A stretch of DNA of 27,158 nucleotides from IMG/VR virus record IMGVR_UViG_3300042484_000302, positions 1 to 27,158 of that record, one strand, 5' to 3'. Shown here in pieces: positions 6,760 through 20,380 of the stretch (the first letter of the stretch is position 1; the number at the start of each line of letters is the position of its first letter). Origin of the DNA: a virus. The notes beneath the pieces were generated by a model. That model saw nothing but the letters and a program-made list of their open reading frames with translations. It was not told the origin of the DNA and made no database searches. Position numbers and translations under genes: made by a program.

Positions 6760-7119
6760 ATGGCTGACGAAATTCAAATGACTGCTCGCTTGTACGCTTC
6801 CAAAGGTGGAGCGTTTCTTCCGAGCGTAACCTACACCAAGAGCGCCACGATGGCTGGCGTTGATATGGGTTCACAGACCCAATCAATTGCCACAACCGTT
6901 GAAGCTCTGGATGTTCCAGTTGATGTATCTAGTCCGTACAAGTTGCTTATCTCCAACTTGGACAACACCAACTTTGTTGAAGCTGGCTTTGTCTCTGGAA
7001 CTTACACGATGCGGATTCCTGCGGGCGAGACGCTTCTGATGCCGTACGTTAGCGCAACGCTGTACCTTAAAGCGGATACTAGCAGCGTGACTATCCAAGC
7101 GACATTCTGCGAGATTTAA
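6760..7119 (+). CDS. Virion protein, first copy of a tandem paralogous pair (119 aa)
   Basis: ATG 6760 follows an A/C-rich leader (CCTAACACAAC) without Shine-Dalgarno. The product begins M-A-D-E-I-Q-M-T-A-R-L-Y-A-S-K-G-G-A and ends in F-C-E-I. It shares this opening, the D-M-G-x-Q-T-Q motif, S-x-P-Y-K-L, R-I-P and the C-terminal F-C-E-I with the next gene. The body is strand-rich and looks like a small jelly-roll or immunoglobulin-like decoration or tail protein, including I-S-N-L-D-N-T-N-F-V-E-A-G and R-I-P-A-G-E-T-L-L-M-P. That R-I-P-x-G-x-x-x-x-x-P style is seen in small virion proteins of unknown role. Confidence 0.72.
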   Translation: MADEIQMTARLYASKGGAFLPSVTYTKSATMAGVDMGSQTQSIATTVEALDVPVDVSSPYKLLISNLDNTNFVEAGFVSGTYTMRIPAGETLLMPYVSATLYLKADTSSVTIQATFCEI

Positions 7120-7130
7120 CCAACTGATTT

Positions 7131-7505
7131 ATGGCCGACGAAATCCAAATGTCAGCGCGGCTATACGCCAGCAAAGGTGGGGCATCAATTAACAACCAGA
7201 CGTTCAATGTTGTAACCAACATGACTGGTACGGATATGGGCCAGCAGACTCAAGACGTAAGCTCAGGAGGAGAGCTTCTTGATATTACTGCTGATCTAAC
7301 ACTTCCCTACAAGTTGTTCGTGTACAACATGGACTTGGTTCACACTATCGGAATTGGTGACGTTGCTTCTCAGGTAAGTGGATATTGGTTCCGAATCCCC
7401 CCGCAGCAGTTTGCGTTGTTGCCGTATACTAATACTGCAATGTATGTAACTTGCACGACTGCTGGAGCTACCGCTAAAATCTTCTCTCAATTCTGCGAGA
7501 TCTAA
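7131..7505 (+). CDS. Virion protein, second copy of the tandem paralogous pair (124 aa)
   Basis: ATG 7131 starts 11 bases after the first copy. The first 18 residues differ from the first copy by one substitution (T to S at residue 8). The middle has diverged, but D-M-G-Q-Q-T-Q, L-P-Y-K-L-F-V-Y-N-M-D and F-R-I-P-P-Q-Q are recognisable counterparts, and both proteins end in F-C-E-I. This indicates gene duplication followed by divergence at the centre, the part most likely exposed if these are decoration or tail-tip proteins. The stop TAA overlaps the next ATG (TAATG). Confidence 0.72.
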   Translation: MADEIQMSARLYASKGGASINNQTFNVVTNMTGTDMGQQTQDVSSGGELLDITADLTLPYKLFVYNMDLVHTIGIGDVASQVSGYWFRIPPQQFALLPYTNTAMYVTCTTAGATAKIFSQFCEI

Positions 7506-10385: not shown

Positions 10386-10580
10386 ATGAAATGTCCCTCC
10401 TGCAACTGCATCTTTGCCGCAAGCCTCCGCGATCTCGCGAAGGAGTTGGGCGGGTCAAAATCAACGGCAAAAGCCTCCGCATCCCGAGCAAACGGAAAGC
10501 GTGGAGGTAGACCGAAAACCTATGAAAAACGAACTAATACCAAGTCAGAAACAGTCCGCGCTGTCGGTGATGGCCGGTAA
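10386..10580 (+). CDS. Small zinc-knuckle/AT-hook-like protein (64 aa)
   Basis: Starts at ATG 10386 with M-K-C-P-S-C-N-C, a CxxCxC cluster of the kind that binds zinc. A short helix (L-R-D-L-A-K-E-L-G-G) follows, then a very basic tail containing G-K-R-G-G-R-P-K-T-Y, close to an AT-hook core (GRP flanked by basic residues). The build suggests a small nucleic-acid-binding protein. Its last 59 bases overlap the start of the downstream bet-like gene in another frame. It is the first gene after the hairpin, so it may lead the recombination operon. The function is not established. Confidence 0.62.
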   Translation: MKCPSCNCIFAASLRDLAKELGGSKSTAKASASRANGKRGGRPKTYEKRTNTKSETVRAVGDGR

Positions 10581-11205
10581 ATTCAGCGTCGAGCCGATCA
10601 AGCTGCTCGATACTCTCCGCGCTACTCTGATGCCGAAAGCTACCAATGAGGAGCTTCTGGCGTTTGTGGTCACTGCAAATCAGTACGACCTGAATCCATT
10701 CACTAAGGAGATTTACGCATTCCCCGGTCGCTCTGGAGGGATTACTCCAGTGGTCTCAGTGGACGGCTGGATCAAGCTGATGAATCGGCATCCGCAGTTT
10801 GACGGCATCCAGTTCCGCACTGATGACGTCGATGGCAAGCCGTTTTCGGTGACTGCAACCATTTACCTTAAAGATCGCTCGCGTCCCGTGGAGATCACCG
10901 AGTTCTTCAGCGAGTGCAATCGCTCAACGGAGCCGTGGAAGGTCAATCCTCGCAGGATGTTGCGACACAAAGCGTTGATCCAATGCGCTCGCGTAGCATT
11001 TGGATTCAGCGGGATCGTGGACGACGAGGAGGCTGTTCCTTCGGTGCAAGTCAACGTCACGCCGTCTCGTCCAATTTTCCGCTCAAAACTAGAGCCGAAG
11101 GTTGAGATCCAGCCTAACGAGTACCTCCCCGAGAATAACCCGATCCCTACCGCTACGGTCCAACCCACCGAAGCAATTTTGCACGAAGGGATGTCCAATG
11201 AGTGA
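10522..11205 (+). CDS. bet: Phage recombination protein Bet (RecT-family single-strand annealase)
   Basis: 227 aa. ATG 10522 was chosen because residues before it (in-frame from 10414) are unlike the family, and the product then begins M-K-N-E-L-I-P-S. Bet-type features are L-L-D-T-L-R-A-T-L-M-P-K-A-T-N-E-E-L, then F-V-V-T-A-N-Q-Y-D-L-N-P-F-T-K-E-I-Y-A-F and V-S-V-D-G-W-I-K-L-M-N-R-H-P. They are followed by C-x(14)-R-M-L-R-H-K-A-L-I-Q-C-A-R-V-A-F-G-F-S-G-I. These proteins anneal complementary single strands and work with an exonuclease, here the next gene, which overlaps by eight bases. Length is slightly below lambda Bet. The C-terminal 50 residues are a variable Pro-rich tail. Confidence 0.92.
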   Translation: MKNELIPSQKQSALSVMAGKFSVEPIKLLDTLRATLMPKATNEELLAFVVTANQYDLNPFTKEIYAFPGRSGGITPVVSVDGWIKLMNRHPQFDGIQFRTDDVDGKPFSVTATIYLKDRSRPVEITEFFSECNRSTEPWKVNPRRMLRHKALIQCARVAFGFSGIVDDEEAVPSVQVNVTPSRPIFRSKLEPKVEIQPNEYLPENNPIPTATVQPTEAILHEGMSNE

Positions 11206-12313
11206 CGAGCGTAATGGACTCCCGAGCGCATCAGCCGCGAGCCGGTACGCAAGTTGTATCGGCAGTTGGCAGTTGGAGAAGGCAATCGCAGAGACCGAGT
11301 CCACCGCTGACGCTGCGACCGGCAACCGCATCCACGCCGCTCTGGGGATGGAGCCGGTTGAGAATCTAACGACAGACGAGACTTACATCATTGATCGCTG
11401 CCGAGAGCAGGAACTGGAGTTGGTCAAACAAGTGTTCTCAACCTCCACCGAGGAGCCGCAAATGTTCCGCGAAAAGCGGCTGTGGTCCCTTCAGAACTAC
11501 GGTCTTGGTCAAGAAGACAAACGGCTCTGGTCTGGTAAACCTGACGTTGTTTACGTCGAAGGCAACAACGCTTTAATCATCGACTACAAGAGCGGTCGCG
11601 GATTAGTCGAGAACGCAGCGGAGAACCTCCAGTTGCGGTGCTTGGTCGCGCTTCTGCATGAATCGTTTGGCTTTACGTTAGAGGCAATCACGGTCGCAAT
11701 CATTCAGCCTCTAGCTGGACCTCCGAGCGTTGCGTCCTACGAGTTAGGCGACCTGATGGATGCGGTGCGTGAGTCGCAGTCGTTGATGAGTGCGATCATG
11801 CAGCCGGACCAACCGCGCACTCCATCAGAGGCCGCTTGCAAGTATTGTAAGGGGAAACCCTATTGCTCCGAAGCGCGGGAATTAGCGGTCACCGGACCAC
11901 TCGCCAACGCTCCAGAAGGCATCACGCCGGACGCGATTGCCTCAACCCTTACATCCAGCCATCTCGCTCAATTCCTCGACAGAGCGGCTCAAGCGGAAGC
12001 GGTTATCGAAGCTTGCAAGTCTGAAGCTCGACGCAGACTGAGTGAGGGAGAAACCATCGAAGGCTGGACGCTTAAAGATGGATCTGTCCGCGAGTCTATT
12101 ACGACTCCTGAAATAGTTGCGTCTCGATTCTTGGAACTCGGGACTTACGAGCAGCTAAGTTCCGCGATCACGCTTAACAAAACGAAGCTCAAAGATGCGG
12201 TCAAACTTGCGACTGGCTTTAAAGGCCAGCAACTCAACGCAAAACTTGATGCTCTCCTCGACGGATGCACCGAGTCCAAAATGTCCCAACCAATACTTAC
12301 ACGAATCAAATGA
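11198..12313 (+). CDS. RecB/Cas4-type PD-(D/E)XK exonuclease with Fe-S-like Cys cluster
   Basis: 371 aa, ATG 11198 overlapping the bet stop. Visible nuclease motifs, in order, are G-N-R-I-H-A-A-L (motif I His46), S-G-K-P-D (Asp116), I-I-D-Y-K-S-G (Asp129, Lys131) and Q-L-R (Gln145). A C-terminal C-K-Y-C-K-G-K-P-Y-C (Cys214, 217, 223) plus an N-terminal Cys20 match the four-cysteine [4Fe-4S] arrangement of Cas4, AddB and related nucleases. Next to Bet it is expected to resect double-strand ends to give single strands for annealing. The last about 140 residues are a helical extension without known motif. It is not the lambda Exo or RecE fold by motif spacing. Confidence 0.86.
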   Translation: MSDERNGLPSASAASRYASCIGSWQLEKAIAETESTADAATGNRIHAALGMEPVENLTTDETYIIDRCREQELELVKQVFSTSTEEPQMFREKRLWSLQNYGLGQEDKRLWSGKPDVVYVEGNNALIIDYKSGRGLVENAAENLQLRCLVALLHESFGFTLEAITVAIIQPLAGPPSVASYELGDLMDAVRESQSLMSAIMQPDQPRTPSEAACKYCKGKPYCSEARELAVTGPLANAPEGITPDAIASTLTSSHLAQFLDRAAQAEAVIEACKSEARRRLSEGETIEGWTLKDGSVRESITTPEIVASRFLELGTYEQLSSAITLNKTKLKDAVKLATGFKGQQLNAKLDALLDGCTESKMSQPILTRIK

Positions 12314-14261: not shown

Positions 14262-14282
14262 TCAAAACCATTAAATACCATG
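14262..14282 (+). repeat. Repeated A-rich translation leader, copy 1
   Basis: The 21 bases ending in the ATG of the gene at 14280 are identical to those ending in the ATG at 14558, including AACCATTAAATACCATG. There is no Shine-Dalgarno within them. A third, 15-of-17 match lies before the ATG at 23380. The repeat stops at the start codon, so it belongs to initiation and not to the proteins. Confidence 0.8.
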
Positions 14283-14534
14283 ACCATCGAAATCAAATAC
14301 ACCGCATCCGTTTACACTCCTGCCGGTTGGCGCGGAGTTACCATCACCGCCAAAGCAACCAAGACCAGCGAGAAAATGGCTCTGGTTGTCGAAGTGCTGG
14401 AAATCAACGGAGAGTCCCCTAAGAGCAGCATGAGCCGCACTGGAGCCAGTCGCCAGCGGTTTAACGGCAGGGGGATCTCCTGCCGAGAGGTAGGAGCCAA
14501 GAAGCGGCTTTCCGCTTGTGAGATTCTCAACTGA
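14280..14534 (+). CDS. Hypothetical small protein (84 aa)
   Basis: ATG 14280 is chosen over GTG 14238 because the 21-base leader seen before another gene ends exactly here. The product starts M-T-I-E-I-K-Y-T-A-S-V-Y-T-P-A-G-W-R-G-V-T-I and continues with helix or strand E-K-M-A-L-V-V-E-V-L-E-I-N-G-E. It ends in a basic segment G-A-S-R-Q-R-F-N-G-R-G and A-K-K-R-L-S-A-C-E-I-L. Early strands followed by a basic tail suggest a nucleic-acid contact, but no family is recognised. Confidence 0.62.
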   Translation: MTIEIKYTASVYTPAGWRGVTITAKATKTSEKMALVVEVLEINGESPKSSMSRTGASRQRFNGRGISCREVGAKKRLSACEILN

Positions 14535-14539
14535 AACCA

Positions 14540-14560
14540 TCAAAACCATTAAATACCATG
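14540..14560 (+). repeat. Repeated A-rich translation leader, copy 2
   Basis: Identical over 21 bases to 14262-14282 and again ending in an ATG start codon, for the gene at 14558. The two genes after the copies encode unrelated proteins, so the identity reflects a shared initiation element or a recombination seam and not gene duplication. Confidence 0.8.
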
Positions 14561-14752
14561 CGATACCATTGCAAAGACCGGAACAGTAAGTCACTCAGCC
14601 AGCACAGCAGCATTCTTGAAGCTCTTAGAGCGCGGGAAGTCTGGCTACACACTCGGGAGTTAATCGGCATCACCGACAACTCTGGCCGACTGCTCTCAGC
14701 GGAAGAACTCTACCAAGCCAAAGCTGCTGCTTGGATGAAAGGGACCAAGTGA
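14558..14752 (+). CDS. Hypothetical small protein (64 aa)
   Basis: Starts at ATG 14558 at the end of the second leader repeat. Sequence features: basic start M-R-Y-H-C-K-D-R-N-S-K-S, then a helix I-L-E-A-L-R-A-R-E-V-W-L-H-T-R, then a second helix L-L-S-A-E-E-L-Y-Q-A-K-A-A-A-W-M. No membrane segment or catalytic pattern is seen. Its stop TGA overlaps the GTG start of the lysozyme-like gene, so the two are probably translationally coupled. Role not identified. Confidence 0.62.
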   Translation: MRYHCKDRNSKSLSQHSSILEALRAREVWLHTRELIGITDNSGRLLSAEELYQAKAAAWMKGTK

Positions 14753-15075
14753 ATCTTGGACCACTCATTGCGGCTCTAATCACCGTGGAGTCTAACGGAC
14801 GAGACAACGCGATTGGAGACGCAGGACTGGCTATCGGTGCGCTCCAGATCCACCGAGCGGTCGTAGTGGACGCAAACCGGATTGCTGGCACCAGCTACAC
14901 TCACCAGCAGATGACTAACCGAGTTGCGGCTCGTCGAGTTTGCGAGATTTATCTCAGCCGGTACGCTGCCGGTAAGACTAACGAGGAAGCCGCGCGGATT
15001 TGGAACGGTGGACCTACTGGTCACCGGAAGCCAGCAACCATCAGTTACTGGAACAAAGTCAAAAAGCATCTATGA
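14749..15075 (+). CDS. Lysozyme-like muramidase/transglycosylase (endolysin candidate)
   Basis: 108 aa from GTG 14749, which overlaps the previous stop (GTGA); ATG 14731 is an alternative. Lysozyme-fold motifs are seen in order: T-V-E-S-N-G (catalytic Glu14), then D-A-G-L-A-I-G-A-L-Q-I-H (family G-A-x-G-x-x-Q-I), a helix of Arg/Tyr residues A-A-R-R-V-C-E-I-Y-L, and A-A-R-I-W-N-G-G-P-T-G. Enzymes of this group cleave the glycan strand of peptidoglycan. There is no signal peptide, so a holin would be needed. Holin-like genes lie far away near position 1000. A virion-associated or entry muramidase is a second option. Confidence 0.82.
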   Translation: MNLGPLIAALITVESNGRDNAIGDAGLAIGALQIHRAVVVDANRIAGTSYTHQQMTNRVAARRVCEIYLSRYAAGKTNEEAARIWNGGPTGHRKPATISYWNKVKKHL

Positions 15076-15206
15076 AGAAAACCATTCTAATATCAGAAGA
15101 CACTCACAAGAAACTCAAAGAGTACTGCAAGAAGGAAGGAATCAAAAGCCAACACCTTACTGATAAGATAATTAGGGAGTGGCTAGATAAGGAGATGGCA
15201 CTATGA
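15072..15206 (+). CDS. Ribbon-helix-helix DNA-binding protein (44 aa)
   Basis: ATG 15072 overlaps the lysozyme stop (ATGA). The 44-aa product has the typical compact layout of the Arc/CopG fold: an N-terminal strand K-K-T-I-L-I-S, first helix E-D-T-H-K-K-L-K-E-Y-C-K-K-E-G, then the turn I-K-S-Q-H-L and second helix D-K-I-I-R-E-W-L-D-K. Such proteins bind DNA as dimers through the strand. It may regulate this operon or be an antitoxin-like partner of the 51-aa product that follows with overlapping codons. The Shine-Dalgarno of that next gene (AAGGAG, 15189-15194) lies in its last codons. Confidence 0.78.
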   Translation: MKKTILISEDTHKKLKEYCKKEGIKSQHLTDKIIREWLDKEMAL

Positions 15207-15358
15207 GCGACAGAATACAGAGCATTATTAAAGGAGGCACCGGCGTGTACAGCATCAGCAAGAAAGAGGCTGGAGAAATCCACAAAGCGGCCAAGAAGGT
15301 TAAAAACTATGCTGTCAGTTATTGGACAAGGAATCGCAAGAATAAGGAGTCCAAATGA
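15203..15358 (+). CDS. Small basic protein (51 aa), partner of the RHH gene
   Basis: ATG 15203 overlaps the RHH stop and follows AAGGAG by eight bases. The product M-S-D-R-I-Q-S-I-I-K-G-G-T-G-V-Y continues with helical, strongly basic K-K-E-A-G-E-I-H-K-A-A-K-K-V-K and ends K-N-K-E-S-K. Its last codons contain the AAGGAG of the next gene. Size, charge and pairing with an RHH gene allow either a second regulator or a toxin-like partner, but no known toxin motif is seen. Confidence 0.68.
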   Translation: MSDRIQSIIKGGTGVYSISKKEAGEIHKAAKKVKNYAVSYWTRNRKNKESK

Positions 15359-15597
15359 ACGTCAAAGAAACCAAAGAATTAAAAAACGTATCTATGGTCA
15401 AACCAATCAAAGAAGACAAAGAGCAGTATCGCCTCACCTTCAAAGGGCTTCTTTCTATCTATCTGCCCGACAAAGTTATGAACGAACTGTTTAGCGCAAT
15501 CGAACTGTCCTGCCGTCGCAACGGCTGGGGCATTGCAATCAACGAAGAGAACCGACTGGACTTTGTTCAGATGCAACAAGTGAAGGAGGCGAAATGA
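15355..15597 (+). CDS. Hypothetical protein (80 aa)
   Basis: ATG 15355 overlaps the previous stop. Features: a basic start N-V-K-E-T-K-E-L-K-N-V-S, strands Y-R-L-T-F-K-G-L-L-S-I-Y-L-P, then a helix K-V-M-N-E-L-F-S-A-I-E-L-S-C-R-R-N-G-W. The end V-K-E-A-K is coded by the AAGGAGG Shine-Dalgarno of the next gene. There is a single clear domain with no membrane segment. I do not recognise the family. Confidence 0.65.
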   Translation: MNVKETKELKNVSMVKPIKEDKEQYRLTFKGLLSIYLPDKVMNELFSAIELSCRRNGWGIAINEENRLDFVQMQQVKEAK

Positions 15598-15941
15598 ACA
15601 TCGAAGAAACTAAAGAATGCATCCGCGTGATGCAGGCATTTGTCGATGGGAAGGAAGTCGAAGCCCTGAATCCTGCTGAAAAATGGGAAAGAGCAACGAC
15701 ACCAAGGTGGGGATGGAACCACACCCAATACCGCATCAAACCCACCCCAGCATTCCGCCCGTGGACTGCGGACGAGGTGCCGCTGGGTTCAATAATGAGG
15801 ACCAAAGGATTGGAAGGACGATGCGTTATCATAGACACAGAAACTTCAGACGATAGATCCTATTGGTTGAACGCCAGAGAACATAGCACCGACGGCGGTA
15901 AAACATGGCACCCGTGCGGGGTGATGGAGGAATGCAAATGA
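15594..15941 (+). CDS. Conserved phage protein of unknown function (115 aa)
   Basis: ATG 15594 overlaps the previous TGA and follows AAGGAGG by four bases. The opening E-C-I-R-V-M-Q-A-F-V-D-G-K-E-V-E, then W-E-R-A-T-T-P-R-W-G-W and Y-R-I-K-P-T, followed by R-P-W-T-A-D-E-V-P-L-G-S, is a pattern met in many accessory phage proteins: a small helix followed by a compact W-Y-R-I-K-P motif and an E-V-P-x-G segment. Those proteins have no known activity. The C-terminal part has T-D-G-G-K-T-W-H-P-C-G-V. Late codons include GGAGG that serves the next gene. Confidence 0.75.
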   Translation: MNIEETKECIRVMQAFVDGKEVEALNPAEKWERATTPRWGWNHTQYRIKPTPAFRPWTADEVPLGSIMRTKGLEGRCVIIDTETSDDRSYWLNAREHSTDGGKTWHPCGVMEECK

Positions 15942-16207
15942 GCGCACCAATCAACAACGGAGGACCGGCGTTTCCAACTGCTGCAACCGCGACAACGCAT
16001 GGATTCTACCAAGACGGTCAACCTTGCATGACCCATTACGGTTCGAGATCTGGCATCACTGTCAGAGACTACTTCGCGGCAAAGGCGTTGCAGGGATTTA
16101 TTTCGGACACGAGCATTCCTGCCAGCATCAAGGTGGATGCAACATTGCTTTCCAGATCTGCCTTTCAGGTAGCCGACGCGATGCTCAAAGCGAGGGGGGC
16201 GAAATGA
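15938..16207 (+). CDS. Conserved phage protein of unknown function (89 aa)
   Basis: ATG 15938 overlaps the preceding stop. The sequence runs N-N-G-G-P-A-F-P, a Thr/Ala-rich loop, D-G-Q-P-C-M-T, then G-S-R-S-G-I-T-V-R-D-Y-F-A-A-K-A-L-Q and a helical end Q-V-A-D-A-M-L-K-A-R. The combination G-G-P-A-F-P, G-x-(S/T)-x-R-D-Y-F-A-A-K-A-L-Q and A-D-A-M-L-x-A-R is common in small proteins of tailed phages, with unknown function. Its final codons (AGGGGGGCGAAATGA) again carry a purine-rich start signal for the next gene. Confidence 0.78.
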   Translation: MSAPINNGGPAFPTAATATTHGFYQDGQPCMTHYGSRSGITVRDYFAAKALQGFISDTSIPASIKVDATLLSRSAFQVADAMLKARGAK

Positions 16208-16590
16208 TTGATACACCGAGGACGGAAGAGTTTGATGGAGAATACAGTGAATGGTCGCCAGCCAAGCCTAAAAACTGGCCAGCATTCGCCCGCCAACTCG
16301 AACGCGAACTCAACGCGGCCAACGAGCGCATCCATCTACTCATCGCAGAGCGCGACACGGCGCGACGACAGGCTGATCAGACTTACAAGCTCCGTAAGGA
16401 GTTTGCCGAACTGCTAGGAACCGATGATGTCGAGCGGGGAGTGGCTGTGGTGCGCGAGATGAAAGAGCGCATCTCAAAGCTGAACGACTACGTTGCCGCG
16501 CTTGAAACAGCAGGTGACTTGATGGCTAACGAACTCAGCTATGGATATGACGTTGATATGTGGAACAAAGCCAAGGAGGCCAAGCCGTGA
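16204..16590 (+). CDS. Coiled-coil protein of the small-protein array (128 aa)
   Basis: ATG 16204 overlaps the previous stop. It opens with M-I-D-T-P-R-T and F-A-R-Q-L-E-R-E-L-N-A-A-N-E-R-I, a long heptad-like helix. A second helix R-I-S-K-L-N-D-Y-V-A-A-L-E-T-A-G-D-L-M follows, and the end is D-M-W-N-K-A-K-E-A-K-P. The L-E-x-A-G-D-x-M and W-N-K-A-K-E-x-K-P elements recur in several neighbouring proteins, and L-E-R-E-L-N-A-A-N recurs in the protein at 18672. No enzymatic motif is visible. Probably a scaffold-like or interaction protein; the true role is unknown. Its last codons contain AAGGAGG (16573-16579) for the next gene. Confidence 0.75.
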   Translation: MIDTPRTEEFDGEYSEWSPAKPKNWPAFARQLERELNAANERIHLLIAERDTARRQADQTYKLRKEFAELLGTDDVERGVAVVREMKERISKLNDYVAALETAGDLMANELSYGYDVDMWNKAKEAKP

Positions 16591-16769
16591 GCTTAGAAAT
16601 GACAGTAAAAATTCAGTGGCAGAAGGAACAGATTTCATTGCTAAAGCAGCACATCCGTCGGCTGGAGGAGGCGGGAGATAAGATGGAGGCATGGCTGCGC
16701 GATGAGCGGTTGGATGCAGTGCAGCACACTGTTTCAAAATGGAACAAAGCCAAGGAGTACAAACCGTGA
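16587..16769 (+). CDS. Coiled-coil protein of the small-protein array (60 aa)
   Basis: GTG 16587 overlaps the previous TGA, eight bitwise bases after AAGGAGG at 16573-16579 (7-base spacing). The product is almost a pure amphipathic helix: W-Q-K-E-Q-I-S-L-L-K-Q-H-I-R-R-L-E-E-A-G-D-K-M-style sequence across residues 11-33, a short polar gap, then V-S-K-W-N-K-A-K-E-Y-K-P. It is the shortest clear member of the family and lacks the N-terminal extension of the gene before. Eighteen bases covering W-N-K-A-K-E (16740-16757) are identical to 16561-16578 in the preceding gene, pointing to duplication or recombination. Confidence 0.72.
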   Translation: MSLEMTVKIQWQKEQISLLKQHIRRLEEAGDKMEAWLRDERLDAVQHTVSKWNKAKEYKP

Positions 16770-16963
16770 GCATCACAATCAAATCGTGGATCGTGCCAGC
16801 ACTCATCACCGTAATCCTGCTGTGCATCATGTTCAGGCCATACCGTTCCAGCGGGCAGTATGACTTTGGACAGATCTTCCGGCTGTTTTGGCTGATACCG
16901 ATCGGAGCCGTTTGGATGGTTTACATGGGTGTACTTCTAATCATCAAGGAGGCCAAGCCGTGA
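16766..16963 (+). CDS. Small two-helix membrane protein in the array (65 aa)
   Basis: GTG 16766 overlaps the previous TGA and follows AAGGAG at 16752-16757. There are two hydrophobic stretches: W-I-V-P-A-L-I-T-V-I-L-L-C-I-M-F near the N-terminus, and L-F-W-L-I-P-I-G-A-V-W-M-V-Y-M-G plus V-L-L-I-I near the C-terminus. A polar loop R-P-Y-R-S-S-G-Q-Y-D separates them. It ends K-E-A-K-P, coded by AAGGAGGCCAAGCCG. It is likely an inner-membrane protein and could anchor the coiled-coil neighbours or act in lysis. Confidence 0.7.
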   Translation: MSITIKSWIVPALITVILLCIMFRPYRSSGQYDFGQIFRLFWLIPIGAVWMVYMGVLLIIKEAKP

Positions 16964-17166
16964 GAACCTCAACCGAAACACTAATCGCAGCCATGCGGAT
17001 ATTGTCTCAGGATATTCAATCCGAGGACGGCGTGGCCAACGCAGCAGTCGCTGAAGCAGCGGAGCGACTAGCGGAGCAGCACATGCGCATCACCCAACTA
17101 GAGCGAGAGAACGACGCTCTCCGCGCCGATCTGCTGCTGTGGGAGAATGGAGGGCCGTTGCCATGA
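16960..17166 (+). CDS. Coiled-coil protein of the small-protein array (68 aa)
   Basis: GTG 16960 overlaps the previous TGA and follows AAGGAGG at 16946-16952. It has a helical start T-E-T-L-I-A-A-M-R-I-L-S-Q-D-I, an Ala/Glu-rich centre, then a strong heptad stretch E-R-L-A-E-Q-H-M-R-I-T-Q-L-E-R-E-N-D-A-L-style helix over residues 37-55. The end is E-N-G-G-P-L-P and lacks the W-x-K-A-K tail of the relatives, so it is a looser member. Its last codons contain GGAGG for the gene at 17163. Confidence 0.68.
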   Translation: MRTSTETLIAAMRILSQDIQSEDGVANAAVAEAAERLAEQHMRITQLERENDALRADLLLWENGGPLP

Positions 17167-17396
17167 GCCAAATCAACGACGCATTTGGGAAACCGATGTA
17201 TGAGGCTGATCCGACCAACGCAAGATACAACAGCCTACAGCTCCAATGCTACGAGCAGCGTAAGGAGATTAATAGGTTGATGGATCGCATCAATCGATTG
17301 GCGCAGGCTGGTGACTGCTTATTGAGTCATCGCAACAGCACCGATTATCACGAAAAAGTTAGAGAGTGGGACAAAGCGAAGAAGGACAAACCATGA
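17163..17396 (+). CDS. Coiled-coil protein of the small-protein array (77 aa)
   Basis: ATG 17163 overlaps the previous TGA. A polar N-terminus (N-D-A-F-G-K-P-M-Y-E-A-D-P-T-N) precedes a helix R-K-E-I-N-R-L-M-D-R-I-N-R-L, then A-Q-A-G-D-C-L and the tail R-E-W-D-K-A-K-K-D-K-P. The R-L-x-x-A-G-D-x-L and W-D-K-A-K-x-x-K-P elements align with the proteins at 16204 and 16587 without gaps in the helix. It is soluble with no known activity. The codons for the tail (AAGAAGGACAAACC) provide the purine-rich start signal of the next gene. Confidence 0.72.
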   Translation: MSQINDAFGKPMYEADPTNARYNSLQLQCYEQRKEINRLMDRINRLAQAGDCLLSHRNSTDYHEKVREWDKAKKDKP

Positions 17397-17755
17397 CAGA
17401 CCTAGAAATAAACGCAGCAATTGCAGCCCATGTAGGATGGAAATCTCGCACCGTAATAGTGCATCATTCTGTTGGGTATCAATGGGACGAATCGTTGACT
17501 GTATGGACCAATCCAGCAGGTCATGACGATGTGCTCCCATCCTACACTACCGACCTCAACGCAATGCACCAAGTAGAGATGGTCCTAGATTCAACAAATG
17601 GAGGTACGGGAAATCCTAATTGCCTTCGATACAGGTATGCTTGCGAGATTTACCGATTGGCTTCGAACGAAATTCAACCTTTCCGATCCACTGCTCGCCA
17701 ACGCGCTGAGGCATTTTTGTGGACAGTTGACAAATGGAGGGAGGCAAAACCGTGA
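17393..17755 (+). CDS. Phage ABA-sandwich-like protein (120 aa)
   Basis: ATG 17393 overlaps the previous TGA. It starts with a helix T-D-L-E-I-N-A-A-I-A-A-H-V-G-W, then strands and loops, and the phrase L-P-S-Y-T-T-D-L-N-A-M-H-Q-V-E-M-V-L. This phrase (P-x-Y-(S/T)-x-D-L-x-A-x-x) is typical of the small alpha-beta-alpha sandwich domain shared by many accessory phage proteins (Phage_ABA_S-like). The C-terminal helix is A-R-Q-R-A-E-A-F-L-W-T-V. It ends D-K-W-R-E-A-K-P, like the coiled-coil neighbours. Family assignment is tentative and function unknown. Confidence 0.72.
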   Translation: MTDLEINAAIAAHVGWKSRTVIVHHSVGYQWDESLTVWTNPAGHDDVLPSYTTDLNAMHQVEMVLDSTNGGTGNPNCLRYRYACEIYRLASNEIQPFRSTARQRAEAFLWTVDKWREAKP

Positions 17756-17937
17756 TCAGTTTTTTGAAACAGTACCTGTATTGGATAGTCGAATCAGTAC
17801 TTTTCTTCTTGGGCATTCTTTTTGGAGCTTACTTTGGTGAATCTGGAATGAAAGAAGAAGCCGTGAGAAAGGACCACGCTGAGTGGGTGGTCGATTGCGC
17901 GGGTAAAAATCAGTTCAAATGGAAGGAGTGCAAATGA
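17752..17937 (+). CDS. Membrane-anchored H-A-E-W motif protein, copy 1 (61 aa)
   Basis: GTG 17752 overlaps the previous TGA behind GGAGGGAGG. One N-terminal membrane helix (Y-W-I-V-E-S-V-L-F-F-L-G-I-L-F-G-A-Y-F) is followed by a soluble tail with E-E-A-V-R-K-D-H-A-E-W-V-V-D and Q-F-K-W-K-E-C-K. The gene at 18487 has the same plan: membrane helix, then E-A-V-x-x-x-H-A-E-W-V-x-D, then Q-F-K-W-K-E-x-K. The H-A-E-W-x-x-D...F-x-W-K-E pattern recurs in small phage membrane proteins whose function I do not know. The codons for W-K-E carry AAGGAG for the next gene. Confidence 0.72.
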   Translation: MISFLKQYLYWIVESVLFFLGILFGAYFGESGMKEEAVRKDHAEWVVDCAGKNQFKWKECK

Positions 17938-18182
17938 GCGACTACACAATACCAACGTCGAATACGATGACTACAATCGACCCACAGGCCACAAAGATCC
18001 GCGAGCTTCAATCCGATGTGAACGAGCTGAAGGAGCTGGTCGAGTACCTGCAAGATCGGATCAAACTACTCAAGAGTACTGGTGACGAGCTGCTTGAGTG
18101 GCTGAAGGACGGTACCATTTCCGACTCAAACTATCGGTTGCTGGCCAATGCATGGCAGCGAGCAAAGGAGAACAAGCGATGA
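17934..18182 (+). CDS. Coiled-coil protein of the small-protein array (82 aa)
   Basis: ATG 17934 overlaps the previous TGA after AAGGAG. Beyond a Ser/Thr-rich start (S-D-Y-T-I-P-T-S-N-T-M-T-T) comes a long helix with clean heptads, from K-I-R-E-L-Q-S-D-V-N-E-L-K-E-L-V to Q-D-R-I-K-L-L-K-S-T-G-D-E-L-L-E-W-L. It ends N-A-W-Q-R-A-K-E-N-K-R. The T-G-D-E-L plus W-Q-R-A-K-E-x-K tail aligns with the family at 16204, 16587 and 17163. The preceding membrane gene is its likely partner, because the same gene order recurs at 18487-18896. Confidence 0.74.
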   Translation: MSDYTIPTSNTMTTIDPQATKIRELQSDVNELKELVEYLQDRIKLLKSTGDELLEWLKDGTISDSNYRLLANAWQRAKENKR

Positions 18183-18463
18183 ACCCCGAATACGAAGCGC
18201 ACGCACGCTTGTGCAAATCCATCGGAGCAATGGCGAAGGAGAACGAAGATCTTAAGCAGCACGTCACCGAACTTGAAAACCGTCTCCGCGCTCTGTGGGA
18301 CAAGTACGATGCAGAACTGAAGCACTGCGTGCAGATGATTGGCAGGTTGGAAAACGCGGGAAATGAAATGTACAAGTTTATCAATCCTCCTTCGCCGTGT
18401 ATGAGGACGACCAGAATGGATAACTTATTGCAGGGTTGGGATGACGCAAAAGGTCAACATTAA
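18179..18463 (+). CDS. Coiled-coil protein of the small-protein array (94 aa)
   Basis: ATG 18179 overlaps the previous TGA. The N-terminal half is M-N-P-E-Y-E-A-H-A-R-L-C-K-S-I-G, then helix K-E-N-E-D-L-K-Q-H-V-T-E-L-E-N-R-L-R-A-L. A second helix C-V-Q-M-I-G-R-L-E-N-A-G-N-E-M carries the family element L-E-x-A-G-x-x-M. The C-terminus is diverged (L-Q-G-W-D-D-A-K-G-Q-H) but keeps the W-x-x-A-K position. A 23-base gap follows with a separate AAGGAG for the next gene, so the overlap chain is broken here. Confidence 0.72.
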   Translation: MNPEYEAHARLCKSIGAMAKENEDLKQHVTELENRLRALWDKYDAELKHCVQMIGRLENAGNEMYKFINPPSPCMRTTRMDNLLQGWDDAKGQH

Positions 18464-18486
18464 ATAACATCTAAGGAGAAAAAGCT

Positions 18487-18675
18487 ATGAAAGACGAATC
18501 GTATTTAGTAATACCGTCTATACTCTTAATCGTGTTTCTATGTGTGCTAATAAACATGTTTGGATTCCATGGAGGTATTAATAAAATGCAACAAGAAGCA
18601 GTCGCTGCTGGCCATGCCGAGTGGGTGGCCGACACAAGCGGCAAACCGCAGTTCAAATGGAAGGAGTCGAAATGA
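18487..18675 (+). CDS. Membrane-anchored H-A-E-W motif protein, copy 2 (62 aa)
   Basis: ATG 18487 follows AAGGAG at 18473-18478 in a 23-base gap. It has a short polar start, a membrane helix Y-L-V-I-P-S-I-L-L-I-V-F-L-C-V-L-I, then Q-Q-E-A-V-A-A-G-H-A-E-W-V-A-D and P-Q-F-K-W-K-E-S-K. It matches copy 1 at 17752 in plan, and the 32 bases at 18649-18680 differ from 17911-17942 at two positions, spanning the stop/start junction. Different membrane helices on a shared tail suggest the tail is the functional part. Confidence 0.74.
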   Translation: MKDESYLVIPSILLIVFLCVLINMFGFHGGINKMQQEAVAAGHAEWVADTSGKPQFKWKESK

Positions 18676-18896
18676 GCGACACCCCAATATCAGACTCAAC
18701 ACCGCACAACGTGGCCGAGTTGGGCATGCTGTGCAGGAGGCTGGAGCGCGAACTCAACGCAGCAAACGCAATCATCCGTCAGCAGCAATTGTTAAATGAG
18801 GAGAATCTGCGGTTAAAGGAACTCATCAAGAGGCTGGAAATTGCAGCATGGAAAAACTACAACAATGCCCATAAAGAGAAGGAGGTTAAGCCGTGA
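18672..18896 (+). CDS. Coiled-coil protein of the small-protein array (74 aa)
   Basis: ATG 18672 overlaps the previous TGA after AAGGAG. It begins M-S-D-T-P-I-S-D-S-T-P-H-N, then C-R-R-L-E-R-E-L-N-A-A-N-A-I-I-R, sharing L-E-R-E-L-N-A-A-N with the protein at 16204. A second helix E-N-L-R-L-K-E-L-I-K-R-L-E-I-A-A-W follows and the end is K-E-K-E-V-K-P. The middle A-G-D element is replaced by A-A-W, and the tryptophan tail is shortened. It is the last coiled-coil gene of the array; AAGGAGG at 18879-18885 serves the next gene. Confidence 0.72.
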   Translation: MSDTPISDSTPHNVAELGMLCRRLERELNAANAIIRQQQLLNEENLRLKELIKRLEIAAWKNYNNAHKEKEVKP

Positions 18897-19135
18897 GCTT
18901 GCTTGAAAAATTAGGCCTATCAAAGCAATCAATGGAGAGAATGCTTGGTGCTGTCGCTCCATTAAAAAAGACTAAAATCAAACGCTATCGGAGATACGAA
19001 ACTGTTCCCGCAGATATCCGTAAAGCCATTCTTGGAGAGCATCAAAGCTACACTTGCCGTGAGTTGGCTAAGAAATATGGCATCTCATCTTCAACCATAT
19101 GGGACATTAGAGACAGTAAATCCAAAATTGAATGA
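18893..19135 (+). CDS. Helix-turn-helix protein, first of three tandem paralogs (80 aa)
   Basis: GTG 18893 overlaps the previous TGA after AAGGAGG. A basic N-terminal arm (A-P-L-K-K-T-K-I-K-R-Y-R-R-Y) leads into the DNA-binding part V-P-A-D-I-R-K-A-I-L, then T-C-R-E-L-A-K-K-Y-G-I-S-S-S-T-I-W-D-I. The helix-turn-helix layout is E-L-A-K-K-Y (support helix), G-I-S turn, S-T-I-W-D-I-R-D (recognition helix), close to HTH_38/resolvase-like DNA-binding domains. The next two genes carry the same module. It is a likely DNA-binding regulator or homing-type DNA-binding module; target unknown. Confidence 0.75.
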   Translation: MSLLEKLGLSKQSMERMLGAVAPLKKTKIKRYRRYETVPADIRKAILGEHQSYTCRELAKKYGISSSTIWDIRDSKSKIE

Positions 19136-19305
19136 CAACAAGAAATGAATCATACATACCAAAGCGCGGACATATACCCGAAGCAGTTGTAATAGAAGTA
19201 CTACAAGACCTTCAGAACAACAGAACATACAGGCAGATTAAAGAAGACTACGCAGTCAGCATAGGTTGGATACACAAAATCAGACACAATAAGACCAGAA
19301 AATGA
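19132..19305 (+). CDS. Helix-turn-helix protein, second of three tandem paralogs (57 aa)
   Basis: ATG 19132 overlaps the previous TGA (ATGA). The 57-aa product has I-P-E-A-V-V-I-E-V-L-Q, T-Y-R-Q-I-K-E-D-Y-A-V-S-I-G-W-I-H-K-I and R-H-N-K-T-R-K. These align with the first paralog's I-R-K-A-I-L, then C-R-E-L-A-K-K-Y-G-I-S-x-x-x-I-W-D-I-R. It lacks the long N-terminal arm and is essentially the HTH alone. It is A-rich in codon use (AGA, ATA) compared with neighbours. Its stop overlaps the ATG of the third paralog. Confidence 0.72.
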   Translation: MTTRNESYIPKRGHIPEAVVIEVLQDLQNNRTYRQIKEDYAVSIGWIHKIRHNKTRK

Positions 19306-19574
19306 ACATACTCAACGAAATCAAAAGCGGGATCTCCAGATTGCTTGGAGTCCATAAGACAGTGGAGACCAAAGAGGCTCCAAGAACTCTAAAGCCCAAA
19401 CGCATCCAAAAGCGTGGAAGGGGACGACCAAAGGGACTCAAGATACCGCAGCAGATTGTCGATGCGGTGCGACAAGCTGACAAGAGCATGACTAACAAAC
19501 AGTTAGCTGCTAAGTATCGTGTTTCTTACTTTTGGGTTTGGAGTGTTCGTAGCAATAAGTTGCGCTTGAATTAA
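19302..19574 (+). CDS. Helix-turn-helix protein with AT-hook, third of three tandem paralogs (90 aa)
   Basis: ATG 19302 overlaps the previous TGA. The N-terminal arm M-N-I-L-N-E-I-K-S-G-I-S-R-L-L-G is followed by a basic region with Q-K-R-G-R-G-R-P-K-G, a textbook AT-hook core. Then comes the HTH: I-P-Q-Q-I-V-D-A-V-R, T-N-K-Q-L-A-A-K-Y-R-V-S-Y-F-W-V-W-S-V-R-S-N-K. It aligns with both preceding proteins. The combination would bind an A/T-rich minor groove next to a specific major-groove site. It ends the accessory region; a 56-base gap follows. Confidence 0.75.
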   Translation: MNILNEIKSGISRLLGVHKTVETKEAPRTLKPKRIQKRGRGRPKGLKIPQQIVDAVRQADKSMTNKQLAAKYRVSYFWVWSVRSNKLRLN

Positions 19575-19630
19575 CCTAATCAACGCGAGTGTGTCTTGAT
19601 TTTGCTCTTCTTTTATGATTATTGCCCATT

Positions 19631-20380
19631 GTGAACATCACTCAGCACCACCGTCGAGTTATGGCGATTGGTTGCAGTCATGGGAGCCGAGCCAATCAAG
19701 ATGCACTCGCTGCGGTGCTATTGTTCCGCGAGAAATTCAAACCAGACGAGATAATCCATTTAGGGGACGCATTCGATCTTGCCTCATTGCGATCTGGCTC
19801 ACTCCAAAACCCCAACGACTCGGATCAAGCGGACGACTATCTTGATGATATCCAAGAGGGAGTAAAGTTCCTCAATGAGTTACGCCCAACGGTGTTCACT
19901 TTAGGAAATCACGATGAGCGAGCTAGGAAGTATCTCAATCACCATAACGCTGTTGTCAGAGGATTTGCGGAGGCTGTATGGGAACGAATGGTTGAGCCTA
20001 TTAACAAACACTGCCATACGTTTATTGAGACCCATGACTGTCTTGAAAGATCATTCTATAAGTTGGGCGGTTTTAGTTGGGGACATGGAGTGCTCTATGG
20101 GGAAAACTTCATTCGTGATTCAGCCGAGACATTTGGTAACTGTGTTGTGGCTCATGCTCATCGAGCCGGTCAAGCGACTGGTCGCAACCAGTCAAATCCA
20201 ATTGGCTTTTGTGTCGGAACTTTGGCGGATATTCCGTCAATGGATTACGCAGGGAAACGACGATCCACATTAGCTTGGTCTCACGGGATCGTATTTGGAG
20301 AATACACAGACAACTCAGCGCAACTATACCTGCACCAATGGCCTCAGAACGAACAGAATTGGCATCTGCCGAGCTTTTAA
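19631..20380 (+). CDS. Calcineurin-like metallophosphoesterase with altered first metal motif
   Basis: 249 aa from GTG 19631; TTG 19622 and ATG 19661 are alternatives and no strong Shine-Dalgarno decides. Motifs: G-C-S-H-G (14-18), H-L-G-D-A-F-D (43-49), L-G-N-H-D-E (91-96), W-G-H-G (150-153) and V-A-H-A-H (173-177). These are the five elements of the two-metal phosphoesterase fold. The first motif, normally D-x-H, has Cys in place of Asp (C15-S-H17), which should change the first metal site. Substrate is unknown; phage relatives act on phosphodiesters or nucleotides. It starts the replication module, and its 3' end overlaps the next gene by 43 bases. Confidence 0.85.
   Translation: MNITQHHRRVMAIGCSHGSRANQDALAAVLLFREKFKPDEIIHLGDAFDLASLRSGSLQNPNDSDQADDYLDDIQEGVKFLNELRPTVFTLGNHDERARKYLNHHNAVVRGFAEAVWERMVEPINKHCHTFIETHDCLERSFYKLGGFSWGHGVLYGENFIRDSAETFGNCVVAHAHRAGQATGRNQSNPIGFCVGTLADIPSMDYAGKRRSTLAWSHGIVFGEYTDNSAQLYLHQWPQNEQNWHLPSF

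Follow-up and report, generated by a model that had tools for sequence, protein, structure and literature searches.

A variable island of overlapping small genes

The viral metagenome record IMGVR_UViG_3300042484_000302 comprises 27,158 bases, possibly themselves a fragment and all covered by our analysis (hereafter the window), and carries a hypervariable island of translationally coupled small genes in which coiled-coil proteins (A, B, C, E, F, G and X) are interleaved with small membrane proteins (M1, M2 and M3) and a further protein, D (Table 1). By reading of its open reading frames (ORFs), virion genes lie at one end of the window and the terminase at the other, with RecT, a PD-(D/E)XK nuclease, RusA and a DnaB helicase between them. 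Six contigs that cover both flanks (14265-15190 and 18900-20300) at >80% have just 9-26% of 15600-18890 in common with the window. Matches over the left flank stop at 15597 (L015, L018) or at 15212 (L089, L094), and those over the right flank pick up again at 18881-18891. Island pieces common to the window and 191 contigs (n=889) have a median length of 57 nucleotides (nt) and a maximum of 755, none of the 889 reaching 1 kb, while pieces of at least 1 kb make up 27% of the 37 left-flank pieces (20 contigs) and 27% of the 63 right-flank pieces (36 contigs); shared pieces were allotted to island or flank by midpoint, and the contig numbers of island and flanks are not comparable, because island sequence was the basis for fetching most loci.

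Coiled-coil genes are built of exchangeable halves around a shared joint

The coiled-coil genes follow a common layout, in which a variable N-module, a 30-nt joint (RIKRLEEAGD), a variable C-module ending in W-x-K-A-K and a 25-nt junction succeed one another. Across the survey set of 226 sequences (225 loci and the window, on 204 contigs from 171 metagenomes, the window's included), 838 junction genes encode 544 distinct proteins of at least 35 residues, and 316 of these match the joint at 6 or more of its 10 positions, compared to 1 of 544 shuffled proteins. The joint-bearing proteins are modular: they fall into 81 N clusters and 109 C clusters joined in 204 combinations, with at least two C partners for 27 N clusters, at least two N partners for 40 C clusters, and 40 complete four-gamete quartets. 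At the DNA level, C-modules at least 95% identical stand behind unrelated N-modules in 218 pairs (107 genes, 20 C clusters), and in 51 pairs a C-module of at least 45 nt is 100% identical behind unrelated N-modules; in L006 and L033, for example, two such genes share their final 110 nt exactly and are unrelated in front of the joint. Reverse swaps, with a shared N-module and unrelated C-modules, amount to 34 pairs under a strict nucleotide rule (41 genes, 13 N clusters). The same fragment is thus found at high identity in otherwise unrelated proteins, as expected of intragenic domain shuffling. Whole modules also come and go among relatives of gene A, the middle module between ERI words being missing in L037, L096 and L074 and extra modules occurring in L003 and L066. 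Both halves are under purifying selection (pooled ratio of nonsynonymous to synonymous polymorphism, pN/pS, of 0.25 for C-modules over 269 pairs and 0.24 for N-modules over 363 pairs, the pairs being non-independent), and their products therefore matter.

An original prediction made from the sequence of the window had proposed six paralogous proteins (A, B, C, E, F and G) sharing a second helix and a W-x-K-A-K-E-x-K-P tail. The proposal is borne out for A (16204), B (16587), C (17163) and E (17934), which are mutually similar across second helix and tail (blastp E 6e-8 to 2e-3 against a database of the 11 island proteins; best phmmer E about 6e-7). A hidden Markov model (HMM) built from these four matches, at E<=1e-5 and counting its own seeds, 108 of the 12,966 distinct stop-to-stop ORFs of 109 loci and the window; reversed ORFs give no match at E<=0.1, and none of the matches in these oriented loci is on the minus strand. 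Gene F (18179) shows weak similarity to B in the window (E 0.003-0.004) and is absent from the window ORFs matched by the HMM at E<=10; we count it as a member because relatives such as L049 carry the F C-module after a canonical RIKRLEEAGD. Gene G (18672) did not hold up as a full member: its only significant resemblance is to A, over the N-terminal LERELNAAN part (E 3e-4), a 12-residue match to B at the joint reaching no more than E 0.56, it has neither AGD nor Trp, and its KEKEVKP tail falls in a junction copy. The list was also incomplete, having overlooked a seventh member at 16960, gene X (RITQLERENDALRADLLLW), of a type present in many relatives. The duplicated family originally proposed is real, as the paralogy of A, B, C and E shows; tandem duplication alone nevertheless overlooks the main point, which is in-frame module exchange. 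Relatives lie on 203 IMG/VR contigs, so that the family does recur in other phages.

M1 and gene D are not similar to the coiled coils, and M2 and M3 (17752 and 18487) are paralogues of each other (E 1.6e-15). Related phage contigs often encode small membrane proteins ending in (H/V)AEWVxDxxGxxxFKWKE; 127 out of 203 candidate stretches were confirmed, and the best 80 were kept.

The junction word encodes the tails of unrelated proteins

The junction, AAAGCCAAGGAGGCCAAGCCGTGAG (~25 nt), combines a Shine-Dalgarno sequence AAGGAG(G), a spacer and a start codon that overlaps the stop codon TGA by 4 nt. Its translation is the KExKP tail, which also closes unrelated proteins (IIKEAKP in M1, KWREAKP in D). 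Four window copies, at 16567, 16746, 16940 and 18873, differ from it by 0-4 mismatches over 25 nt, and two more, at 17373 and 17732, by 6-7; the other strand of the window holds none, and each of 10 one-strand Markov controls at most one. In 999,097 bases (109 loci and the window) the 19-nt junction core, at up to 3 mismatches, has 354 copies on the gene strand and none on the opposite strand. The exact core is present in at least 120 stretches of IMG/VR, which holds more copies, since these are the first 120 exact-match stretches.

Clustering of 241 distinct junction-ended proteins, after removal of the last nine residues and with corrected gene starts, yields 21, 24 or 30 groups at three thresholds (24 at E<1e-6), of which 11, 12 or 15, respectively, have a member with at most one junction mismatch. 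By reading of the list, 3 of the 24 groups belong to the coiled-coil family and 21 are other proteins, 10 of the latter carrying a copy with no more than one mismatch in 19 nt; they include membrane, helix-turn-helix (HTH) and zinc-ribbon-like proteins (domain names assigned by eye). A MKYRKKPVIIEATQW-type protein at position 5627 of L033 has a junction-encoded EEAKP tail; proteins of this type are common in phages.

These data divide the originally proposed tail signature in two. Gene F, which has no overlapping gene behind it, ends in GWDDAKGQH, and in L014, where a junction comes after this C-module, the ending is GWDDAKIGKEVKP; since F keeps W-x-x-A-K without an overlapping gene, this part is a feature of the coiled-coil protein, and KExKP is an effect of the junction. 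The contrast between overlapping and non-overlapping tails is an illustration rather than a statistic, because only 7 tails lack an overlap: 3 of them are cut off by contig ends, and among the remaining 4, 3 represent one C-module. A concern raised along with the prediction, that tails might reflect gene-junction constraints and helices lack significant similarity, thus applies to KExKP and fails for the helices. An 18-base identity reported between 16561-16578 and 16740-16757 is exact and sits in the junction repeat (family D1). The suggestion of a membrane-tethered assembly finds no support: membrane and coiled-coil genes occur in different arrangements in different contigs, and what they have in common is junction DNA; a complex may exist all the same.

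Homology often changes at repeated words that are conserved as DNA

Breakpoints are concentrated at these words. Among ungapped pairs of equal module length, chosen as sharing one side and differing on the other, 119 of 146 collapsed C-shared comparisons have their change-point between -18 and +11 nt relative to the start of the joint, and 96 of 102 N-shared ones between +6 and +41 nt. Joint and junction blocks contain 1131 of the 2268 distinct match ends from 148 dereplicated arrays, compared to a permutation expectation of 407 (standard deviation 19, maximum 461 in 200), a test which, given word conservation, locates the change in homology and not the exact crossover. A motif-free measure of sharing depth along the window yields 15 peak words of 24-48 nt, comprising gene junctions, one gene start, LERELNAANER (twice), RLEEAGD, LERENDALRADLLLW, TKIRELQSDV and VTELENRLRALWDK, and hence several intragenic words rather than a single one. 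Within a phage, joints and junctions are repeated in one orientation, and different phages have them in common. The first joint arginine is encoded by CGC in 79% of cases (background 32%) and the second by CGG in 88% (background 14%), the background being the rest of the same genes; as protein selection or codon bias is unlikely to produce position-specific arginine codons, the joint is conserved as DNA.

One near-identical pair shows that exchange has been recent. L031 and the window are 99.94% identical over 5168 bp, from 18060, 3 nt into the joint of gene E, to 23227, the end of L031; directly upstream of this joint L031 is unrelated and carries a cysteine-rich N-module instead. In L228, adjacent genes contain the two halves of gene E, its N-module in gene 1 (97.8% over 134 nt) and its C-module in gene 2 (96.8% over 125 nt). 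Because both halves are adjacent there, gene E has the structure that a joint-to-joint deletion between such neighbours would leave.

Proposed module exchange by homologous recombination and alternative explanations

Our preferred model, to which we assign a probability of about 0.78, is that of a combinatorial gene array whose modules are exchanged in frame at repeated words by homologous recombination, perhaps with RecT as the driver. We infer homologous recombination as the process, with phage RecT as its most likely agent. At these words it would swap gene halves in frame and insert, remove or reorder whole cassettes; within one genome it would fuse neighbours and delete the intervening DNA, exchange between co-infecting phages being an alternative route. 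A cassette inserted at a junction would be translated, because the junction brings a ribosome-binding site and the 4-nt stop/start overlap. At the joint, which lies within a continuous helix in two structural models, another helix could be fitted in register. Passages of PMC3945230 report that Rad52-like phage recombinases, including RecT and Red-beta, recombine short diverged sequences, with a pairing segment of 23-27 bp for Red-beta, close to the length of the words, and 31-34 for RecA. The RecT encoded in the left flank of the window gives a full-length profile match, and RecT matches at E<=1e-3 are present in 20 of 31 contigs of at least 30 kb, hand-picked from all such contigs and consisting of records that may be fragments; 16 of the matches lie over the cut-off and 4 under it.

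Several points weigh against such a model. The evidence throughout consists of metagenome contigs. The joint score is below 6 in 228 of the 544 distinct junction proteins, and the largest N cluster (63 partners), which is probably a single-linkage chain, inflates some of the counts. Among C-shared comparisons, 27 of 146 reach at least 30 nt upstream of the joint; 1137 of the 2268 match ends fall outside joint and junction (further words exist), and alignment ends are drawn to word edges because the words are conserved among members. The 31 long contigs include 11 with no RecT match and none with an ERF annealase, and the RecT profile is spanned in just 5 of the 20 matches, the other 15 being partial (E 1e-7 to 6e-5). 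An exact run of at least 23 nt, the bottom of the Red-beta range, is present in only about 5% of within-genome joint or junction pairs, so that exchange would have to tolerate mismatches, which Rad52-like recombinases reportedly do, or happen between genomes. Finally, 232 of 293 exact joints are found in a single metagenome.

Ordinary phage mosaicism offers a different account of the array, in which exchange is random and illegitimate, only fusions at gene ends or in register within a helix survive, and the words are passive. Phage genomes are generally mosaic, every second match end is found elsewhere than in a joint or junction, and AlphaFold models of B and A (predicted local distance difference test scores of 85.6 and 78.4, respectively) place the joint within a continuous helix followed by a short Trp-bearing one, a setting that would tolerate in-frame fusions. 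However, the position-specific joint codons and a junction spacer shared by unrelated genes suggest copying at the DNA level, and island pieces are shorter than those of the flanks, which together make an origin by survival of random fusions unlikely.

Assembly chimeras at short repeats are a serious technical rival. Repeats of 25-45 nt, close to common assembly k-mer sizes, might link unrelated contigs, and the many joints confined to one metagenome would fit such an artefact. Against it stands recurrence, as 61 of the 293 exact joints are found in at least two metagenomes and, among 33 downstream words with several unrelated upstream partners, 5 have at least two partners each replicated, with the proviso that replicating metagenomes may include sister samples of one site. 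We consider it very unlikely that chimeras account for the array.

Tandem duplication and divergence of one coiled-coil family, with shared pieces passed on by vertical descent, fits the paralogy of A, B, C and E and is hardly credible in the face of incongruent halves, namely the identical C-modules behind unrelated N-modules and the four-gamete quartets. A dedicated site-specific or reverse-transcriptase diversifier working on the words, which are short, oriented and repeated, is just as improbable: tyrosine integrases, serine recombinases and reverse transcriptases each gave 0 of 31 among the long contigs (possibly fragmentary records), which leaves these contigs without the nearby enzyme that marks shufflons, invertons, integrons and diversity-generating retroelements, and the words are by eye non-palindromic and differ among themselves.

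Beyond homologous in-frame exchange at the words, it is conceivable, if somewhat doubtful, that the island is a dedicated diversification locus with a logic like that of exon shuffling, where in-frame words keep a pool of N and C halves interchangeable population-wide via an annealase and new proteins arise continually in ecological time. Were this true, a continual supply of new coiled-coil proteins would fit an arms race over intracellular targets.

Relation to known systems

On balance we read the island as a combinatorial module-shuffling array, a form of phage mosaicism that has traits of both start-associated sequence (SAS) repeats and domain shuffling and is set apart by an in-frame two-word architecture that did not turn up in the open-access literature searched. 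The SAS of Cluster K mycobacteriophages are described in passages of PMC3203893 as repeated words with a ribosome-binding-site core at the starts of genes of different families, and the authors note there that such words could be homologous recombination targets that add to mosaicism. Like these SAS, as far as the passages describe them, the junction is an asymmetric Shine-Dalgarno repeat in one orientation at unrelated gene starts (21 of 24 clusters; 354 copies versus 0). The two differ in sequence, the start-associated Cluster K consensus being GGGATAGGAGCCC and the junction AAAGCCAAGGAGGCCAAGCCGTGAG, and, on the same passages, the island word differs in spanning the stop/start overlap, in encoding the upstream C-terminus and in having companion intragenic words for half-swaps. 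For phage proteins in general, PMC10684548 concerns ongoing shuffling of fragments, with a focus on core functions linked to host interaction, and one of its passages expects more mosaicism among accessory proteins and those of unknown function; fragment shuffling is common to both cases, and arrays with shared joint words do not appear in the passages considered. Relaxed recombination, in the passages of PMC3945230, supplies a mechanism and concerns the general mosaicism of temperate phages and defective prophages rather than an array of repeated words.

An open-access literature search returned no title on such an arrangement, which does not prove its absence. Antigenic-variation cassettes, HsdS domain swapping, shufflons and diversity-generating retroelements all combine conserved flanks, swappable parts and combinatorial output; the island differs from them in having no evident silent store beside an expressed copy and none of the dedicated enzymes tested in the 31 contigs. 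A study titled on regulatory cassettes that mediate modular shuffling reportedly deals with promoter stem-loop cassettes between whole genes, with no intragenic joint.

Under homologous in-frame exchange, the island would be an accessory locus in which the exchange of half proteins can be traced at nucleotide resolution, its exchange points being written as repeated words. It would open to testing the long-standing question of whether short boundary sequences are a cause of phage mosaicism or simply outlast it. The 81 N and 109 C clusters would also form a ready parts list of modules that are under purifying selection, apparently often recombined and, where searched, free of any named family.

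Products, relatives and host

Island and module proteins have no Pfam match over the cut-off (best E 3e-4, a coiled coil), their best PHROG match is that of gene E to phrog_34475 (function not known; E 4e-4), and a PDB profile search with the joint region gives a best E of 0.27. Gene D has no Pfam match and a best PHROG E of 0.64; M2 matches neither Pfam nor PHROG, and M3 only PHROG at E 0.22. No named anti-defence or other family was matched in Pfam, PHROG and PDB, the scope of the search (PADLOC and NCBIfam lay outside it). Lar-type anti-restriction proteins, which might be expected from the zinc-ribbon-like N-modules, were not matched by the four such proteins searched. Our guess, based on their location, size, variability and selection, is that these small proteins serve as adaptors or decoys in counter-defence or host takeover, roles in which rapid diversification would pay.

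Among isolate phages, tblastn with gene B, M3 and a canonical member returned no match (limits E 1, 1 and 10, respectively), gene A a single match at E 0.07, and the sole hits to island DNA were two records of a single Synechococcus phage (E 0.8). A scan of cellular genomes with the single pattern I[KR]RLEEAGD yielded one relative from 22 candidate stretches, L228 (1-900), on a 4-kb contig of a Verrucomicrobiota metagenome-assembled genome; as all three genome matches lie on that contig, it probably stems from a phage and was binned together with the host genome. An Akkermansia phage has a terminase with 34% identity over 77% to the one in the window, and those of Paenibacillus and Faecalibacterium phages are equally close. 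We would regard a member of the Verrucomicrobiota as the likely host.

Features of the window

Coordinates are collected in Table 1. In the conserved left flank, the PD-(D/E)XK nuclease is a probable partner exonuclease of RecT.

Table 1. Island genes, joints, junctions and shared words, with the recombination genes of the left flank, in window coordinates
Feature	Position	Strand	Basis or remark
RecT-family single-strand annealing protein, conserved left flank	10414..11205	+	PF03837, E 3.1e-29; start uncertain, 10489-11202 searched
PD-(D/E)XK nuclease (DUF2800)	11102..12313	+	start uncertain, 11192-12310 searched
Hypervariable island of translationally coupled small genes	15594..18896	+	conserved flanks on either side; left edge 15212 in some relatives
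Gene A: head, LERELNAANERI word, middle module, ERI joint, C-module	16204..16590	+	helices 22-71, 76-111, 115-125
Shared word LERELNAANER in gene A	16296..16331	+	sharing-depth peak 135, island median 12
ERI joint of gene A; modules part here in L037	16465..16473	+	comparison with relatives
Junction A/B, consensus copy AAAGCCAAGGAGGCCAAGCCGTGAG	16565..16592	+	depth 286; repeat family D1
Gene B: N-module, joint HIRRLEEAGD, C-module KMEAWLRDERLDAVQHTVSKW	16587..16769	+	model helices 3-39, 43-57
Joint of gene B	16650..16679	+	joint score 9/10
Junction B/M1	16741..16771	+	repeat family, sharing depth
M1, small membrane protein, junction tail IIKEAKP	16766..16963	+	hydrophobic stretches judged by eye
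Junction M1/X	16944..16971	+	junction scan, sharing depth
Gene X: N-module RTSTETLIAAMRIL..., joint RITQLE, C-module ENDALRADLLLW	16960..17166	+	depth peak 17096-17144
Gene C: N-module as L107, L184; C-module as L049, L145, L185, L205	17163..17396	+	sharing breaks at joint
Joint of gene C (RINRLAQAGD)	17286..17315	+	matches end at joint -6 or begin at joint +0; score 7/10
Gene D, earlier called ABA-sandwich-like, degenerate junction at end	17393..17755	+	junction with 7 mismatches over 25 nt
M2, small membrane protein, ends HAEWVxDxxGxxQFKWKExK	17752..17937	+	47% identity to M3
ATG-type junction M2/E	17911..17942	+	depth 72
Gene E, recombinant in structure	17934..18182	+	N-module as L228 gene 1, C-module as L228 gene 2
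Shared word TKIRELQSDV in gene E	17978..18021	+	sharing depth, match ends
Joint of gene E	18057..18086	+	L031 and window unrelated just upstream, near-identical from 18060
Junction E/F, diverged copy	18153..18184	+	repeat search
Gene F, no overlapping gene after it, no KExKP tail	18179..18463	+	sequence
Shared word in gene F (HVTELENRLRALWDK)	18258..18305	+	sharing depth
Joint of gene F (MIGRLENAGN)	18335..18364	+	sequence, relatives
M3, membrane protein, M2 paralogue	18487..18675	+	blastp
ATG-type junction M3/G	18649..18682	+	sharing depth
Gene G: SDTPISDSTPHN... N-module with LERELNAAN word, joint LIKRLE, odd C-module	18672..18896	+	sequence comparison
Junction after G, right island edge	18875..18899	+	junction scan, match ends, sharing depth

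At the right edge of the island, three successive small genes (18893-19574) have HTH-like C-termini (SSSTIWDIR, SIGWIHKIR and SYFWVWSVR) and resemble another diverged tandem family. Elsewhere in the window, 6760-7119 and 7131-7505 encode neighbouring paralogues that start with MADEIQM(T/S)ARLYASKGGA and are possibly virion proteins.

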